A stretch of DNA of 49,134 nucleotides from Candidatus Curtissbacteria bacterium RIFOXYA1_FULL_41_14. Lineage in GTDB: Bacteria > Patescibacteriota > Microgenomatia > Curtissbacterales > GWA2-41-24. The position numbers were made by a program, and so were the translations under genes. Within the stretch, counting starts at the first letter, position 1, and each line of letters begins with the position of its first letter. Shown piece after piece: positions 16,650 to 44,782 of the stretch. The notes beneath the pieces are model-generated. The model did not search any database, had not been told where the DNA came from, and saw only the letters and a program-made list of their open reading frames with translations. The stretch covers positions 1 through 49,134 of the forward strand of contig MFCA01000029.1 of the NCBI GenBank assembly GCA_001775095.1, written 5' to 3'.

Positions 16650-19604
16650 TTAACTTGACTTGTCGATTTTGACCCGTACGATTCCTAGCTCGGGGCCCTT
16701 TATAATCGCTTTTGCTAGGGTTTCCTTTTTAATAAGATCTTCAAAATCTTTAGGCCAGGAAGGTAAGGTTACTGTGATTTGTTCGTCGAGCGCACATCCC
16801 GCTTCTTTTCTGGCTTGTTGGATCTGACGAACAATCTCCCGGGCCTGGCCTTCAGCTAAAACTTGATTGCCAGCACTTTTAAGATGAGTAATATTACCAC
16901 TAACAGCAAATTCTTTTTCGAAACCTTTAAGTATTCCCTCATATACTAATTCCTTAACATTGACTTCGTCTTTTAGTATTTCTAAAACGCTACTCGAGAT
17001 TTGTGTTGGTCCTTGATATGTAATTTTGACGAGAGGAATTCTTACTTTTATCTCGTGCATTTTTCTAAACGCATGAATTACGGATGCAAGTTTTACTGCG
17101 TTTTCCATATCTTCTTCTATTTTTGGCTCTGATTTTAATACTTCTAAATCAGGCCAATTAGCAAGGTGGACTGAAGGCTCACCCGTTATATTTCTATATA
17201 TCTCATCGCTTACAAATGGAACCATTGGTGCCAGTACCTTAGAATACTCAGACAGTGCAATATAAAGCGCTTGATAGGCATCCTCTTTGTCTTGGACATT
17301 TTCGGCTGTAGGACCAATCCTGTCTCTCGATCGTCTGACGAACCAATTTGATAGATCTCTAATTATAAAAATTTCTGCATTCCCAATCGCATCTACAGCA
17401 TCATATCGGCCTAAGGCTTCTTGGATATGCTTTATATTCCCTTTTAATCTTGAGAGTAACCACTGGTCTAGTACGTTTAAAGGTTGAAAACTCGCTTTAG
17501 GTGACCAATTTTCAGTATTTGCATAATTTACGAAAAATGCGTATACATTCCAAAGTCTTAAATAAAACCAACGTCTCACTTCATCTGCTCTATGATAACC
17601 AAATAATAAATTATCCACTGGATTTTGCCTTAGATACATCCAGCGCATAACATCAACTCCTATTTTGTCAGCCGCTTCGTTAAATTCGATGGCGTTGCCT
17701 TTGCTTTTGTGCATTTCCTCACCTTTCTCGTCCAGAAGAGTCGCAAACCCTAAGACGGTTTTGTAAGGAGGGGAGTTTTTTAAAACCGTTGCCATGGCAA
17801 TCATCGAGTAAAACCAGTTTTTAAACTGGCCGGGGAAAGACTCTGTTATAAAATCCGCGGGATACCAAGAGGGAGGGACTGTTGAAATTGGTACAATACC
17901 GGCATCCAGCCAGACGTTGCCAACATCCGGAACTCTTGACATTACTTCCCCGCATTTTGGACATTTTATTTTGACGGCATCTATTTGGGGTCTATGAGGG
18001 CTTTTACCTTCAAATTCGTCCCAACCCTCGATTGCTTTTTGTTTAAGTTCATCTTTGGATCCTATAACTTCAAAATGTGGGCACTTCGTACATTCCCAAA
18101 TAGGCAAAGCCAGACCCCAGTATCTTTTTTTGGAAATTAGCCAGTCATGCATGTTCTTGAGCCAATCTAGCTCCCGATCCAGCCCAAATTTCGGAATCCA
18201 GTTTATTTCCTTGGCAACATCAACCATCTGCTGCCTTAGCGTCATTTCGTCTTTAGTCTTTAGTCTTTCGTCTTTGGACTTTCTATCCATTGCGATATAC
18301 CATTCGTTAACCACCCGCCAGACAAGTTCAGTTTTGCAACGCCAGCAGGTAGGGTAGCGATGTTGGTAATTTTCTATTTTGAAAAGTGCCTTTTTCTCCT
18401 TTAGCTTTTCGATAACCAGATCCGGATTGTCTTTGGCATTTTGACCGGTTAAGTCGCCAAATCCGTCAATGTAGTTTGCTCCCTCGTCGATTGACTCAAT
18501 AACCGGCAGATTTTCTTTTTGGGCCAAATCAAAATCTTCTTCTCCTGCGCCAGGTGCAATGTGAACCAAGCCGGTTCCCTCTTCGGCCGTTACTAAATCT
18601 TTATCTTTTATAACTCGATGCTCTACCCCGTTTAGTGCCGGCAGCTCATCAAAAACCCCTTGATAGGGAAGACCGACCAGTTCTGATCCCTTGAACTTCT
18701 TCTGAGATTTTTGGTTAATTCCAATTATTCTGGCTCTTTGGACAGCCAAGATGACTGACTCCCCGTCTATTGTCCACAAACCGTATTCAAGTTCCGGGTT
18801 AACGGCTATTGCGACGTTTGACGGAAGTGTCCAAGGCGTAGTCGTCCAGACGAGAAGAAAGAGCTTACCTTTAACTCTTTGACTCTTTAACTCTTTGACT
18901 CTGTATTTTACGTATACCGCCTTGTGTGTGATCTCCTGATACTCCTCTGTTAAAATTTCGTGCTGGGAAATTGCCGTACCGCAACGTGGACACCAGGGGA
19001 CAGAATCCCTTCCTTTATATAAGTAGCCTTTTTGGCGACAAACCTTTAAAAAATTCCAAATTGCGTAGTTATTTTCGTCAGATGACGTGTGATAGGAGTT
19101 TTGCCAATCCATAAAATAGCCGAGACGTTTACTTTGTTCGGTCTGCATTTGGGAATATTTTTTGACGCGTTCTTTGCATAAATCAATGAATTTGCTGATG
19201 CCAAATTTTTCAATATCCTTTTTGTTTTTAAACCCAAGTTCCTTTTCAACCTCTACCTCTATCCATAAACCTTGCTCGTCAAAACCGTTCTGGAACCTTC
19301 CTTGATACCCTTGCATGTTGTAAAAACGCTGCCAGAGATCTTTGTAAGTTCTGCCCCAAGCATGGTGAACGCCCATCGGATTATTGGCAGTAATTGGGCC
19401 GTCCAGAAAGGAGAATTTTTTATTGAATCCGCCAGCTGGCGGATTGTTGCGCTTTAAATATTTTTCGATAATTCCGTTTTCGTACCAGTAATCCAAAAGC
19501 TTTTTCTCCATCGCCACAAAATCCTGCTTCGGATCGACAGGTTTAAATTTGCGAGTCTTTTCCATAGATTGGCTAATTATTGCAGATGACAAACCTTCAT
19601 TCAA
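16650..19604 (-). CDS. ileS: Isoleucyl-tRNA synthetase
   Basis: GPITANNPMGVHHAWGRT (HIGH region), WTTTPWTLPSNVA, HMSKGNAIEF-type KMSKS (MHKSKGNAIEF), CxxC zinc motifs (CPRCG, CTKCPHF, CPKCGEV). Confidence 0.96.
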   Translation of the reverse strand: MNEGLSSAIISQSMEKTRKFKPVDPKQDFVAMEKKLLDYWYENGIIEKYLKRNNPPAGGFNKKFSFLDGPITANNPMGVHHAWGRTYKDLWQRFYNMQGYQGRFQNGFDEQGLWIEVEVEKELGFKNKKDIEKFGISKFIDLCKERVKKYSQMQTEQSKRLGYFMDWQNSYHTSSDENNYAIWNFLKVCRQKGYLYKGRDSVPWCPRCGTAISQHEILTEEYQEITHKAVYVKYRVKELKSQRVKGKLFLLVWTTTPWTLPSNVAIAVNPELEYGLWTIDGESVILAVQRARIIGINQKSQKKFKGSELVGLPYQGVFDELPALNGVEHRVIKDKDLVTAEEGTGLVHIAPGAGEEDFDLAQKENLPVIESIDEGANYIDGFGDLTGQNAKDNPDLVIEKLKEKKALFKIENYQHRYPTCWRCKTELVWRVVNEWYIAMDRKSKDERLKTKDEMTLRQQMVDVAKEINWIPKFGLDRELDWLKNMHDWLISKKRYWGLALPIWECTKCPHFEVIGSKDELKQKAIEGWDEFEGKSPHRPQIDAVKIKCPKCGEVMSRVPDVGNVWLDAGIVPISTVPPSWYPADFITESFPGQFKNWFYSMIAMATVLKNSPPYKTVLGFATLLDEKGEEMHKSKGNAIEFNEAADKIGVDVMRWMYLRQNPVDNLLFGYHRADEVRRWFYLRLWNVYAFFVNYANTENWSPKASFQPLNVLDQWLLSRLKGNIKHIQEALGRYDAVDAIGNAEIFIIRDLSNWFVRRSRDRIGPTAENVQDKEDAYQALYIALSEYSKVLAPMVPFVSDEIYRNITGEPSVHLANWPDLEVLKSEPKIEEDMENAVKLASVIHAFRKMHEIKVRIPLVKITYQGPTQISSSVLEILKDEVNVKELVYEGILKGFEKEFAVSGNITHLKSAGNQVLAEGQAREIVRQIQQARKEAGCALDEQITVTLPSWPKDFEDLIKKETLAKAIIKGPELGIVRVKIDKSS
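18249..18276. repeat. 7-mer tandem repeat (GTCTTTN x4) inside ileS
   Basis: gtcttta gtcttta gtctttc gtctttg; encodes the KSKDERLKTKDE segment on the minus strand. Confidence 0.9.
18873..18902. repeat. 8-mer tandem repeat (RACTCTTT x~4) inside ileS
   Basis: aactcttt gactcttt aactcttt gactct; encodes RVKELKSQRVK on the minus strand. Confidence 0.9.
19426..19445. repeat. Perfect 20-nt palindrome inside ileS
   Basis: aatccgccagctggcggatt equals its own reverse complement; encodes N-P-P-A-G-G-F. The 16-nt core recurs at 29374-29389. Confidence 0.95.
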
Positions 19605-27822: not shown

Positions 27823-29310
27823 ATGAAATATGCTTTAACTGTAAAACAAGCGCTTCTATTCACTGACCTTAGTCTATTGGGATGCACAAGGTCACATTTT
27901 AAAAAGGTATTGGGTATTGACTATACTTTTCCCGAATGTTTGATCAGGGCAAACGATATATTTTGGAACTTTGATAATGATACCGAATTTAATGATACTC
28001 TTCTAAAAAACAAGACACTTGATCAGGCAGTCACTCACTTTAATACTTCGCTAGGTAAAGTAACACAGAATCTCGAAAATATTACCAAGAAAATTGTTAG
28101 CTCCAAAAAAATGCAGTCTTCAAATAAGAACGAACTTTTTTTACTATTCAAGAATTACTATGGTGCATACTCTCTCAACATGCCTTTTCTGTTTCATTAT
28201 TGGAATGTCGAGAGCCTCCTGATAGGACAATTAAAGGAAGATTTCCACGCAATTTTTGGTGAGGATTCTGAAGGCAATCTCCAACAAATGCTTATTCCTG
28301 CTCATGAGACATATTTTGCGAGAGAAAAGAATAGTATGCAAAAAATAGTAGATTATGTATATAAGAACAAGAAGTTAAAATCTTTTATACTAAAACACAA
28401 AATAGCTTCGATAATTCGCAGCCTGCAAGATTACTCAACACTTGAAAACCTCATTTCTCAACATATAAAGGACTTTGGTTTTACGACAACCTCATTGTAT
28501 TTAGGTAACGCGATGTCTAAAGACGATGTTGTTGAGCGATTAAAATCCAGCTTAGAAGATTACTCTTTAGTGAAAAAGAGTGAACAAAGTAAACTTGAGA
28601 AAAATGCCACGTTTTACAAAAGAAAACTTCTGAAACAGAGAAAATCTTATCCTGAGATTGAAAAAAGACTACAACTTGCGTGCGAACTTATGTATTGGAA
28701 AAATCAAAGGCTGGATGTCATGTTTAAGTCAGATTTTCTTATTCATCCCCTACTGGAAAACATTGCTGCAAAAATGCAATTAGGCTTTCACGAACTTGTT
28801 TACTTACGCTACGGAGAAATTCTTAAATGGTTTAAAACTGGAAAACTCCCAAAAAAGCAAGAGCTTGCAAAGAGAATTAAAAACTACGCGCTTTATTTAA
28901 AAAACGGCTCAATCACATTACTGACCAATGAGAAAGTTTATCCCAGGCTAGCTTCCGAGAAAGCTTTCCGCGCTATACGTGTATCATCGAAGCTTATAAA
29001 AGGGGACATTGCATGTCGTGGAAAAGTAAAAGGAAACGTACGAATAGTGCTTGTCACTGAAGATATTCAGTACGTTAAAAGAGGAGAAATCTTAGTAACG
29101 CCTATGACTCGTCCGGATATGATACTTGGTATGGAAAAAGCCGCCGCATTTGTGACGGATCACGGGGGAATGCTGAGCCACGCCGCGATTGTGGCAAGGG
29201 AGATGAAAAAACCTTGCATTGTCGGTACACAAAACGCGACAAAACTGTTAAAAACGGGGATGTTTGTCGAGGTTGATGCAAATAATGGGATAGTAAAAGT
29301 TTTGAATTAA
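27823..29310 (+). CDS. Orphan PEP-utilizing enzyme swivelling-His-domain protein with novel N-terminal region
   Basis: C-terminal GKVKGNVRIVLVTEDIQYVKRGEILVTPMTRPDMILGMEKAAAFVTDHGGMLSHAAIVAREMKKPCIVGTQNATKLLKTGMFVEVDANNGIVKVL; no ATP-grasp or TIM-barrel PEP domain recognised upstream. Confidence 0.78.
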   Translation: MKYALTVKQALLFTDLSLLGCTRSHFKKVLGIDYTFPECLIRANDIFWNFDNDTEFNDTLLKNKTLDQAVTHFNTSLGKVTQNLENITKKIVSSKKMQSSNKNELFLLFKNYYGAYSLNMPFLFHYWNVESLLIGQLKEDFHAIFGEDSEGNLQQMLIPAHETYFAREKNSMQKIVDYVYKNKKLKSFILKHKIASIIRSLQDYSTLENLISQHIKDFGFTTTSLYLGNAMSKDDVVERLKSSLEDYSLVKKSEQSKLEKNATFYKRKLLKQRKSYPEIEKRLQLACELMYWKNQRLDVMFKSDFLIHPLLENIAAKMQLGFHELVYLRYGEILKWFKTGKLPKKQELAKRIKNYALYLKNGSITLLTNEKVYPRLASEKAFRAIRVSSKLIKGDIACRGKVKGNVRIVLVTEDIQYVKRGEILVTPMTRPDMILGMEKAAAFVTDHGGMLSHAAIVAREMKKPCIVGTQNATKLLKTGMFVEVDANNGIVKVLN

Positions 29311-29336: not shown

Positions 29337-29446
29337 GTGGGAATTCCTAAGTCGTCTGCCTCTTTTAGGTTCATCCGCCAGCTGGCGGAAACAAGTACTC
29401 CCTAAGAATGATTTTCCATTCTTGGGTCATCAAAAGGCAAAAAAAG
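29337..29446. repeat. Flanking repeat copy B, carrying a nested palindrome
   Basis: gtgggaattcctaagtc.....cctcttttaggttc (29337-29372), tccgccagctggcgga at 29374-29389, ttcttgggtcatcaaaaggc (from 29419). Confidence 0.8.
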
Positions 29447-29556: not shown

Positions 29557-31047
29557 ATGAGGATGGAATGTAGGGATAAATCCCTGGATAAGCTTTACAA
29601 GAGAAGGTCAAAGATTGATATCCCTGAATATCAAAGAGAGAAGGTCTGGAGTTTAGAAAAGAAAAGGAAGTTTATTGATACGATCCTAAAAGGTTGGCAT
29701 GTTCCGAAACTTTATTTTCGATCTATGGATCCTGAAGACCAATCTTTCGAGTGCGTTGATGGTCAACAAAGGCTGAATGCAGTTTTTGAATTTTATGAAG
29801 GTAAAATTTCTTTACCAGTAGGTTCTGAAAAGCTATATGGTGGTTTGACATACGATACATTAAAAACATCATACTCGGACACTTTTGATGACTACTGTTT
29901 CCAAATTGAAGAAATAGAAGACGCTTCAGATCAAGAGCTTGAGGAATTATTTCTCAGACTACAATTAGGTACGCCATTAAACACGGCTGAAAAGTTAAAT
30001 GCAATTGGAGGAGAGCTTAGAGGGTATATCAAAGAACTTGCAGACCATTCCTTCTTCAAAGATGCAATAGGTGTAAAAAATACACGCTTTGCTCACTTCG
30101 TAATTTGTTGCAGATTCTTTTACCTTGAAATATTTAAGGTTCCAAATAAGTTGCGTCAAGAAGAGCTTGAGAAGATGTTGAGCGACAATAAAAAATTTAG
30201 TAGAAATTCTAGTGCGGCAAAAAAGGTCAAATTGATTCTAGGCTTTCTTTATGAGGTATTTAAAGAAAATAGTAAGCTTTTGACTAATCGAGCAAATATT
30301 GTTTCTTGTTACTACCTTATCTCACTTTTTAAAGACATAAAATCTTTGAACTCTAAAGTTGACGTATTTAGGGTCTTTTTCTTTGATTTCTTTACCGCTT
30401 TGCAAGCAGAGGTTGAAAAAGGTTCTCGCGCAAAGGATAGAGATCTTATAGCATATCAGGATGCCATTTCGCGAAATACTGACAGTAGAGAAGCAATCAA
30501 CACTCGTCAAAGAATTCTCCTAAAATATTTGGCGCAACAAATGCCGGACATTTTCAGATTGCTGGAAATTCCCGTATCGGAACGAGCGATCATTATAGAT
30601 GAATTTGTGGACAGCTTTAAAGAATCTATTCTTTTAATAAATAAAAATTACTTAGCTAAACATGGTACGCAAAAAATAAAATATACAAACGAAATAATTG
30701 CAGCGGACAAAATACTGAAGAAGTTAATTACAGACGAAGCTGATTTCGGTAACATGATAGATTCTTTGTACAAACTTTTATATGAAGGTTCTGGCAATGG
30801 TGTTCGTTTGTTAAATTCAAATAATGAAGTACTTGATGACATTAAATCATTTAGACTTGATTTAAGGCACGATATCGAGCATAGTAAAAGCCATGATATT
30901 AGAAAGAAGTCAAGAAAAATATCTGATACTTATTTCAAATATACAGGTAAAAAAGCTCTATCCCTGCTTGATAGTAATGATTTCTCAATTCTACAATTCT
31001 CAATTTATTCTAAAATAGCTGATTTTTTAAACACCGAGAAGGGGTAA
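29557..31047 (+). CDS. DUF262 (GmrSD N-terminal-like) protein
   Basis: IDIPEYQREKVWSLEKKRKFIDTILKGWHVPKLYF, FECVDGQQRLNAVFEFYEGKI, ELEELFLRLQLGTPLNTAEKLNA; uncharacterised C-terminal half. Confidence 0.88.
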   Translation: MRMECRDKSLDKLYKRRSKIDIPEYQREKVWSLEKKRKFIDTILKGWHVPKLYFRSMDPEDQSFECVDGQQRLNAVFEFYEGKISLPVGSEKLYGGLTYDTLKTSYSDTFDDYCFQIEEIEDASDQELEELFLRLQLGTPLNTAEKLNAIGGELRGYIKELADHSFFKDAIGVKNTRFAHFVICCRFFYLEIFKVPNKLRQEELEKMLSDNKKFSRNSSAAKKVKLILGFLYEVFKENSKLLTNRANIVSCYYLISLFKDIKSLNSKVDVFRVFFFDFFTALQAEVEKGSRAKDRDLIAYQDAISRNTDSREAINTRQRILLKYLAQQMPDIFRLLEIPVSERAIIIDEFVDSFKESILLINKNYLAKHGTQKIKYTNEIIAADKILKKLITDEADFGNMIDSLYKLLYEGSGNGVRLLNSNNEVLDDIKSFRLDLRHDIEHSKSHDIRKKSRKISDTYFKYTGKKALSLLDSNDFSILQFSIYSKIADFLNTEKG

Positions 31048-42623: not shown

Positions 42624-43760
42624 TTAGATTACTTCTCTTTTGAGGGATATTTCCGATAGGTGGGTTAGGAGTTCATAAGGAATTCTTTCAATAGTTTGAG
42701 AAGCATTGGTAATCGAATTAGAATGGGCTGCATTGTCAGAAAAAATAATTACTTCTTGTCCCATCTTGGGATTTATTACAGGAGACAAGTCAATAGTTGT
42801 GATATTCATACTAATATTACCAATGATTGGACACGGTTTGTCGGCAACTATCACTACTCCTTTGTTGGATAGATTCCTGTCAACACCGTCATTGTAACCA
42901 ATCGGGAGAATTCCAATTGACATTTCCCGATCGCAAACAAAAGTCCCCGAATAGCCAACTTTGTCTCCTTTTTTAAGCTTTTTAATCTGAATTATTTTTG
43001 AGGTAACCTTTAATACCGGGTTGAGCTTCGGATGTTTGCCAGTTGGGTCAATACCATAAAGAGCCAAACCAACTCTTGCCATGTTTGATATTTTAGAGAT
43101 CTTAGCCATGTCTTTGGATAATACTCCACCGGATGCTGCAAGGTGCAACCATTTTAACTCAAAGCCCGCCTCTCTTAAGAAAGTCCTGGCTTTTTGGAAA
43201 TTAATAAGTTGCTTTTTTGAGAGTTCTTCTTTTATGCTTTCCTGGTAAGCAAGATGGCTCATAAGTCCTGTTACTTTTATATTTTTATAATCCCTTAGCT
43301 TTTCAATAAATTCCGGCAAGTCTTGCATCATTATCCCGAGACGATGCATACCTGTGTCAACCTTGATATGGACTTGACAGCCCTTTTGATATTTATTAAT
43401 TACTTCCAGTTGTTCGTGGTCAAAAACGGCATAAGCGAAGGGTAGTTTTTTAACCTTAAGACTGATGGGATGGATATAACCCATGATCAAAATTGGAGTT
43501 TTAACTCGTGCCTTCAAAAGCAAATATGCTTCATAAAGACTATCCACGCAAAACATTGGAGGCTTTTGGCTCTCTAAGATTTTTGCAGTTTGAACGATTC
43601 CATGACCGTAAGCGTTACTTTTTAGAACAGGGGCAATTTTGAGATTTTTTTGAAGTTTTTTTAAATATTGATAGTTACCAACTAATCTTTTTTGGGATAT
43701 TAAAATTTTATTGAGTGGAATATACTCTTTACCTAAAATTTTCCTGATGAATTTTATCAT
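42624..43760 (-). CDS. alr: Alanine racemase
   Basis: APVLKSNAYGHGIVQTAKIL (PLP Lys), VHIKVDTGMHRLGI, VGYSGTFVCDREMSIGILPIGYNDGVDR, ISMNITTIDLS. Confidence 0.95.
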   Translation of the reverse strand: MIKFIRKILGKEYIPLNKILISQKRLVGNYQYLKKLQKNLKIAPVLKSNAYGHGIVQTAKILESQKPPMFCVDSLYEAYLLLKARVKTPILIMGYIHPISLKVKKLPFAYAVFDHEQLEVINKYQKGCQVHIKVDTGMHRLGIMMQDLPEFIEKLRDYKNIKVTGLMSHLAYQESIKEELSKKQLINFQKARTFLREAGFELKWLHLAASGGVLSKDMAKISKISNMARVGLALYGIDPTGKHPKLNPVLKVTSKIIQIKKLKKGDKVGYSGTFVCDREMSIGILPIGYNDGVDRNLSNKGVVIVADKPCPIIGNISMNITTIDLSPVINPKMGQEVIIFSDNAAHSNSITNASQTIERIPYELLTHLSEISLKREVI

Positions 43761-44782
43761 TTCGAAAGAGCAAACATAACAATTTTATCCAATAACTCAG
43801 GGTAGGAAATGCCGGCAGCGACGGCCGATTTTGGGAACAGAGAAACCGGAGTCAGACCAGGAATTGTGTTGACTTCAAGAACGTAAATATTATTTCCCTT
43901 TGCTATCATGTCTACCCTACCGAATCCACTACAACCCAGTGATTGATACGCTGTCAAAGCAATTTGCTGAGCTTTTTTGGTCAGGGCTTTGCTGATTCTG
44001 GCCGGAACGATTTCATCACAAAGCTTGTCATTATATTTAGCCTTGTAATCAAAAAAGTCTCTTTTCGGAACAATTTCTACGACCGGCAGCGCTTTAGGCT
44101 TGTTGTTACCCAAGATCGGACAGGTAATTTCAATACCGTCGAGAAACTCTTCTGCTAAAGCTAAGTGACTAAAGTCAAATGCTAAGTTGAGTGCATCTCT
44201 TAACTTGTTTTTCTCCTTGACCAAAGTTGTGCCGACTGATGATCCTTGATTATGTGGTTTGACAAAAACCGGAGGTTTAAATTTTTTCCAAACGATTTGG
44301 GGACTATCATCTTTTTGGAGAACTAAATATTCAGGCACTTTTAAGCCTGCTTGGGTAAATAATTTCCTTGAGGAAATTTTGTCCATACCTAAAGCAGAAG
44401 CTAAAATGCCGGAGCCGGTGTAGGGAACACCAATTAATTCTAAAAAACCTTGAATAGTACCATCCTCGCCATTGGGTCCATGCATAGCAATGAAAACAAC
44501 ATCAACTTTGTGGTTTTTGATTATCGACACATGATCAGTTTTGATAAGCTTCCCCACTTTTGGCTTTTTACCCTTAACCCGCCTCTTGGCGGGGGAGTCT
44601 AAAAGAAACGCTGCCCTCTCGCCTATCTGCCAGGTAATACCGTTACGAGAAATGACAATTGGTAGAACATTATATTTTTTGAAATTTAGGTTCTTGACCA
44701 CTTCCCGTCCTGAAATCAGAGAGATTTCATGTTCGGCAGATTTGCCACCCATCAATACGGTGACAGTAATTCTTTTTTTCAT
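43757..44782 (-). CDS. ddl: D-alanine-D-alanine ligase
   Basis: VLMGGKSAEHEISLISG, MHGPNGEDGTIQGFLELIGVPYTGSGILASALGMDK, KPHNQGSSVGT, LEVNTIPGLTPVSLFPKSAVAAGISYPELL. Confidence 0.96.
   Translation of the reverse strand: MKKRITVTVLMGGKSAEHEISLISGREVVKNLNFKKYNVLPIVISRNGITWQIGERAAFLLDSPAKRRVKGKKPKVGKLIKTDHVSIIKNHKVDVVFIAMHGPNGEDGTIQGFLELIGVPYTGSGILASALGMDKISSRKLFTQAGLKVPEYLVLQKDDSPQIVWKKFKPPVFVKPHNQGSSVGTTLVKEKNKLRDALNLAFDFSHLALAEEFLDGIEITCPILGNNKPKALPVVEIVPKRDFFDYKAKYNDKLCDEIVPARISKALTKKAQQIALTAYQSLGCSGFGRVDMIAKGNNIYVLEVNTIPGLTPVSLFPKSAVAAGISYPELLDKIVMFALSK
44578..44593. repeat. Palindrome inside ddl
   Basis: cccgcc-tctt-ggcggg, in frame, encoding part of SPAKRRVKG. Confidence 0.8.

Follow-up and report, generated by a model that had tools for sequence, protein, structure and literature searches.

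The window analysed here is the whole 49,134-nucleotide stretch of contig MFCA01000029.1 from Candidatus Curtissbacteria bacterium RIFOXYA1_FULL_41_14. It carries the isoleucyl-tRNA synthetase (IleRS) gene ileS with a short perfect palindrome inside its reading frame, and the core of that palindrome occurs a second time in a spacer:

16650..19604, minus strand: ileS, isoleucyl-tRNA synthetase, the host gene of the palindrome (match to PDB 1ile, E 5e-158)
19426..19445, no strand assigned: 20-nt perfect palindrome AATCCGCCAGCTGGCGGATT (the core plus two flanking bases on each side), in ileS, read on the minus strand as N-P-P-A-G-G-F
19428..19443, no strand assigned: 16-nt element core TCCGCCAGCTGGCGGA, with stem TCCGCC/GGCGGA and loop AGCT
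29374..29389, no strand assigned: second 16-nt core, in the spacer between the ORFs at 27823-29310 and 29557-31047

The first-pass annotation, made from sequence alone, had placed the 20-nt palindrome in ileS and a repeat of its 16-nt core in the spacer, and both claims held exactly: aatccgccagctggcggatt lies at 19426-19445 within the minus-strand ileS ORF, and the core recurs without mismatch in intergenic DNA. These are the only 2 core sites in the window at ≤3 mismatches, against a mean of 0.12 in 100 dinucleotide shuffles, none of which ever yielded 2. Folded in isolation, the 20-mer forms a hairpin (−12.2 kcal/mol as RNA, −7.8 as DNA) that no shuffle equaled. All six frames of TCCGCCAGCTGGCGGA are free of stop codons, and the sequence is translated as PPAGG, SASWR, or RQLA.

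The protein context of the ileS palindrome is ...IIEKYLKRN-NPPAGGF-NKKFSFLDGPITANN. In an alignment with Thermus IleRS (1ile), PPAGG falls within a gapped stretch that runs from the N-terminal helix to the strand preceding the active-site motif, which bears out the earlier placement of NPPAGGF in a loop joining that helix to the strand leading to the HIGH region. The same annotation had proposed the conservation of PPAGG among IleRS proteins as a test of its own idea. The residues are not conserved, being shared with just 1 of 13 sampled relatives (G013 only) and absent from the Thermus enzyme. IleRS (16650-19604) has two more length-variable, low-complexity inserts, ELKSQRVKG and SKDERLKTKDE, which differ among relatives. 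Elsewhere in the window, at 44578-44593, a further GC-rich hairpin, CCCGCCTCTTGGCGGG, lies in a D-alanine-D-alanine ligase-like ORF (43757-44782); that it is a related insert is no more than a possibility.

The 1.15-Mb source genome (Microgenomatia, Patescibacteria) holds 7 exact copies of TCCGCCAGCTGGCGGA and 20 at ≤3 mismatches, compared with 0 and 2 for a reversed-pattern control. Several near variants retain the TCCGCC/GGCGGA stem and have the loop altered to AACT, GGCT, AGCC, or GGCC. The exact 16-mer was found in 39 of 94 relatives, the richest of which have 47 (in 0.5 Mb), 18, 16, 14, and 13 copies, and in 80 of 380 genomes sampled across the phylum, with a maximum of 22 copies. Because the reversed control was found 0 times in every one of the 94 relatives and 380 phylum genomes, the abundance of the 16-mer is not attributable to chance. 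Genome-wide over-representation was the other test that the first-pass annotation had named, and the strength of the excess favors the element idea. Presence is patchy, even within genera. A scan of named genomes gave at least 119 stretches, 52 of them in Patescibacteria and 31 in Bacteroidota, with the rest scattered; isolate genomes (Mucilaginibacter flavidus and Pedobacter psychrophilus), and not only metagenome-assembled genomes (MAGs), contain copies.

Counts of this kind need some care. Native codon runs, such as VIRQLAEE in ABC ATPases, account for some matches in GC-rich genomes and have to be excluded from copy counts. Longer lineage-specific repeats contain many of the copies in G054, G028, G057, G070, and G053, and part of the copy number in those genomes is therefore not due to the 16-mer itself. 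G053 and G070 copies (e.g., L232-L234, L217, and L218) sit within AAAATC-type AT-rich tandem repeats, which are themselves in frame in long ORFs.

Most source-genome copies are genic. Five of the 7 lie in frame in ileS, ispH, tmk, pgk, and a large repetitive ORF, and the remaining two are in a spacer and in a tRNA-linked element. In the relative G071, all 16 copies are inside ORFs of ≥120 codons, 3 of them at ORF ends. The surroundings beyond the palindrome are unrelated among copies in both genomes. A structured RNA gene can also be the host: in Wolfebacteria MAG NORP124 (L151:1695-2219), the palindrome is the P3 hairpin of a class A RNase P RNA (RF00010, E 4e-21). A candidate second RNase P RNA, at L057, was set aside: it resembles one on visual inspection, but the contig stops at that point and the covariance model gave no confirmation.

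Relatives without the element show empty sites for the source-genome copies in ileS, ispH, tmk, and pgk. Each of these copies adds four amino acids, two codons having become six, and each insertion is missing from nearly all aligned relatives. Base-level empty sites for the G071 copies came from ten congeneric genomes. The middle four bases of TGTGA[TAAA]TGC in leuS, GATAA[TATA]CAA in yebC, TTTGA[GAAA]GTT in gatA, and TTTAA[AGGT]TGG in a GT4 glycosyltransferase gene have each given way to TCCGCCAGCTGGCGGA. Across the eight genes (ileS, ispH, tmk, pgk, glycosyltransferase, leuS, gatA, and yebC), the net change is the replacement of ~4 nt by the 16-mer, a gain of 12 nt that usually encodes xPPAGG. 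In the mvaD and eno genes of G071, ~7 nt were replaced, for a net gain of 9 nt and three amino acids, and at the G071 pheT site, a variable loop, the net length change is not clear-cut. The exact extent of the replaced bases depends on an ancestor inferred from sister species. The nearest comparisons are between species within one genus; no movement was watched and no population-level presence or absence was seen. These data show dispersal to unrelated places, a block-replacement geometry, and a filter for copies that keep the reading frame.

Several of the same sites have other occupants. At the exact spot of the ileS palindrome, G012 and G008 (L333 and L335) carry another insert, and a different insert likewise occupies the ispH spot in relatives; the gatA loop in G094 (L379) is occupied by CCCTTCGACAGGCTCAGGG instead, and the eno loop in G097 and G103 (L404 and L405) holds other hairpins. 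These gene loops are tolerant, several short repeats having settled in them, and the pattern suggests that several tiny palindromic families share sites. A second perfect palindrome, CTGCCTGCGCAGGCAG, is present in 19 copies in G028 (L441 plus 18 places), in 5 copies in G033 (L439 plus 4), and singly in five other relatives. It is real and has a far narrower distribution than TCCGCCAGCTGGCGGA.

Two further ideas about the target were tried and not adopted. Abutting direct repeats of ≥3 bp are in excess (25 versus 6.5 expected), but mostly in the AT-rich repeat contexts of G053, G070, G028, and G054; we do not claim target-site duplication because the clean gene sites show replacement. Insertion solely into pre-existing hairpin loops could describe only a minority of cases, given that flanks are paired over ≥4 bp in 11 of 151 copies (~2.5 expected) and unpaired in 120 of 151.

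Other evidence bears on whether the unit is protein or nucleic acid. Of 48 bare sites, 43 have an A next to the stem on one or both sides (0.50 expected, P = 1.5e-8); T accounts for only 6% of the bases there. Three copies are common to two genomes: ileS in the source genome and G013, pgk in the source genome and G004, and mvaD in G071 and G094. In each of these genes, the 4-fold synonymous sites of the stem are identical (4/4 per gene, 12/12 in total), compared with 50% (ileS), 25% (pgk), and 50% (mvaD) of the 4-fold sites elsewhere in the same stretches; the sole changes are in the loop, from AGCT to AGCC and ATCT. Either the stem is preserved as a DNA or RNA feature, or the same element entered the same site on two occasions; both are nucleic-acid explanations. 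The preference for a flanking A, the unchanged synonymous stem sites, and the RNase P P3 hairpin together lead us to read nucleic acid, not protein, as the unit.

The palindrome also recurs in a composite arrangement at tRNA genes. At tRNA-Asn loci of the source genome, Wolfebacteria, and Daviesbacteria, it takes the place of the D-loop in a partial, duplicated copy of the tRNA 5′ end, which is followed by a GIY-YIG ORF of ~85 to 90 residues that runs into the tRNA gene and then by the intact tRNA-Asn:

L002:1483-1853, source genome (copy C7): composite element at tRNA-Asn
L085:2094-2600, Wolfebacteria MAG: composite element at tRNA-Asn, in two tandem copies
L159:1425-1812, Daviesbacteria: composite element at tRNA-Asn
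L048:1478-1860, G032: similar element at tRNA-Lys, with the palindrome in or near the D-loop

A Kaiserbacteria locus (L075) apparently has the same start, its contig ending before the tRNA, and at a Bacteroidetes tRNA-Met locus (L169) partial tRNA copies containing the palindrome lie close to a GIY-YIG ORF. The palindrome is thus a regular constituent of one tRNA-linked element, which looks like a tRNA-targeting homing element. Insertion into working tRNAs can be ruled out because the tRNA-like matches are partial duplicates beside intact tRNA genes.

We consider it likely that Patescibacteria harbor the 16-mer as a dispersed palindromic insertion element of very small size, one that behaves like a Rickettsia palindromic element (RPE). 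The mechanism is inferred. The spreading unit would be a DNA hairpin which, extruded or single-stranded, may be copied into a break or gap with the loss of a few target bases. This copying would be mediated by a trans-acting factor recognizing TCCGCC/GGCGGA, although no enzyme has been tied to the element. Selection would then purge insertions that are out of frame or in active sites, leaving the net +12 and +9 events in tolerant loops, and the PPAGG residues would be a by-product of the DNA element. Because all six frames are open, in-frame loop copies can survive in essential genes.

Two rival explanations assign the movement to a known enzyme family. The palindrome might be akin to a REP and depend for its movement on a RAYT (Y1, HUH) transposase whose gene lies elsewhere in the genome; REPs are 20- to 40-nt palindromes thought to be moved by such enzymes (PMC3733652, PMC3116915). 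Y1_Tnp genes are indeed present in 73 of 94 relatives, including the source genome, and correlate weakly with palindrome count (rho 0.22, P = 0.03). However, G053 and G070 have 13 and 14 copies with no Y1_Tnp match, neither a GTAG nor a CGTC tag is apparent from the flank composition of bare sites, and the copies are largely genic in the source genome and G071. Insertion of the IS200/IS605 type, moreover, is not known to delete 4 target bases. We regard this rival as unlikely. The other possibility is that small GIY-YIG homing-type elements carry the palindrome as one of their parts and that it is inserted when GIY-YIG cuts are repaired. In its favor are the composites of partial tRNA, palindrome, and GIY-YIG ORF in several lineages and the presence of GIY-YIG genes in 92 of 94 relatives, with a weak correlation to 16-mer copy number (rho 0.30, P = 0.003). 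Against it, G057 has 10 copies and no GIY-YIG (PF01541) match, a motif scan of copy-bearing loci found just 8 GIY-YIG-like ORFs, and neither ORF flanking the window's second copy (29374-29389) encodes a GIY-YIG protein. This rival, too, is improbable. Given the carriers without a GIY-YIG match (G057) or a Y1 match (G053 and G070), neither enzyme family accounts for all carriers.

The remaining rivals do without mobility. A sequence recognized by the cell or a host, such as a DNA uptake signal or a nucleoid or regulatory site, could be held in place by selection, and the exact sequence is kept across the phylum with its synonymous stem sites conserved. Yet copies originate through the replacement of a whole block rather than through base substitutions; density is patchy, ranging from 0 to 47 copies among related genomes; and 7 copies per 1.15 Mb would be thin for an uptake code. 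This reading is unlikely. That PPAGG is simply a native IleRS loop and its repeat a coincidence has some precedent in the native codon runs of GC-rich genomes noted above, but it is all but excluded by alignments in which most close relatives and the Thermus enzyme lack PPAGG and by a reversed control that was 0 in all relatives and phylum genomes.

The preferred reading, a dispersed palindromic insertion element, admits a bolder form: that TCCGCCAGCTGGCGGA represents an undescribed class of ~16-nt hairpin elements that move by replacing ~4 bases, are open in six frames, are spread phylum-wide and possibly exchanged with Bacteroidota, and are joined by unrelated palindromes in the same tolerant loops. 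Taken as one joint claim, this is something we would bet slightly against. If it were true, unrelated palindromes in the same loops would point to a general hairpin-copying machinery, not to one selfish sequence. Protein-rewriting selfish palindromes have so far come mainly from Rickettsia, and the means by which so small a sequence moves has yet to be explained. The present unit is nearly minimal in length, congeners reveal its empty sites base by base, and the many genomes with 0 to 47 copies make the mechanism directly testable. The element would also account for recurrent PPAGG, SASWR, and RQLA inserts in CPR proteins, which are able to mislead alignments and structure predictions. The open-access literature that we searched contained no mention of TCCGCCAGCTGGCGGA or of any CPR palindromic element. 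This silence lends novelty only weak support, given that a large share of publications, including subscription papers and preprints, lay outside the search.

Several known systems resemble the element in part. Like REPs and REPINs, it is a short GC-rich palindrome with patchy copy number between relatives and is sometimes genic. It differs from REPs in lacking the GTAG/CGTC tag and showing an A preference at −1 instead, in not being mainly extragenic (5/7 genic in the source genome and 16/16 in ORFs in G071), and in having carriers (G053 and G070) without a detectable Y1 transposase; on none of these criteria (tag, location, and RAYT linkage) does it count as a REP. It differs from a GIY-YIG homing element in that one carrier (G057) has no match to the nuclease, which rarely lies beside copies. 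Highly iterated or uptake oligonucleotides (HIP1 and DUS) arise by substitution without length change, whereas these copies replace 4 to 7 nt with 16. Cyanobacteria have small dispersed repeats (SDR; Elhai et al. 2008, as cited in PMC3116915) that are likewise very small, with mobility proposed from genome comparison; SDR are known from cyanobacteria and not from CPR, and no sequence comparison with TCCGCCAGCTGGCGGA was made. The GC clusters and double-hairpin elements of fungal mitochondria are also short GC-rich hairpins strewn across AT-rich genomes, in genes and RNA genes. Those elements, unlike the present one, are organellar, and no sequence link was tested.

The closest parallel remains the RPEs (Ogata et al. 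2000, 2002), which the first-pass annotation had invoked. The likeness holds in behavior: a hairpin-forming palindrome is found in spacers and in frame in conserved protein genes, the reading frame is kept, the insertion is missing from orthologues (ileS, ispH, tmk, pgk, leuS, gatA, yebC, and GT4), and a structured RNA gene (RNase P RNA) is also a host. It does not extend to size or geometry. RPEs, described from Rickettsia, are 105 to 146 bp long with 12-bp terminal inverted repeats (PMC2229807), whereas the patescibacterial element is 16 to 20 nt, is open in six frames, occurs across a phylum and beyond, and swaps out ~4 nt rather than purely adding sequence. By size, it is not a member of the RPE family. 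The earlier interpretation is supported, and the observation is stronger than was claimed. By analogy, the 16-mer is likely to be a phylum-wide counterpart of the RPEs and to rank among the smallest dispersing DNA elements known.
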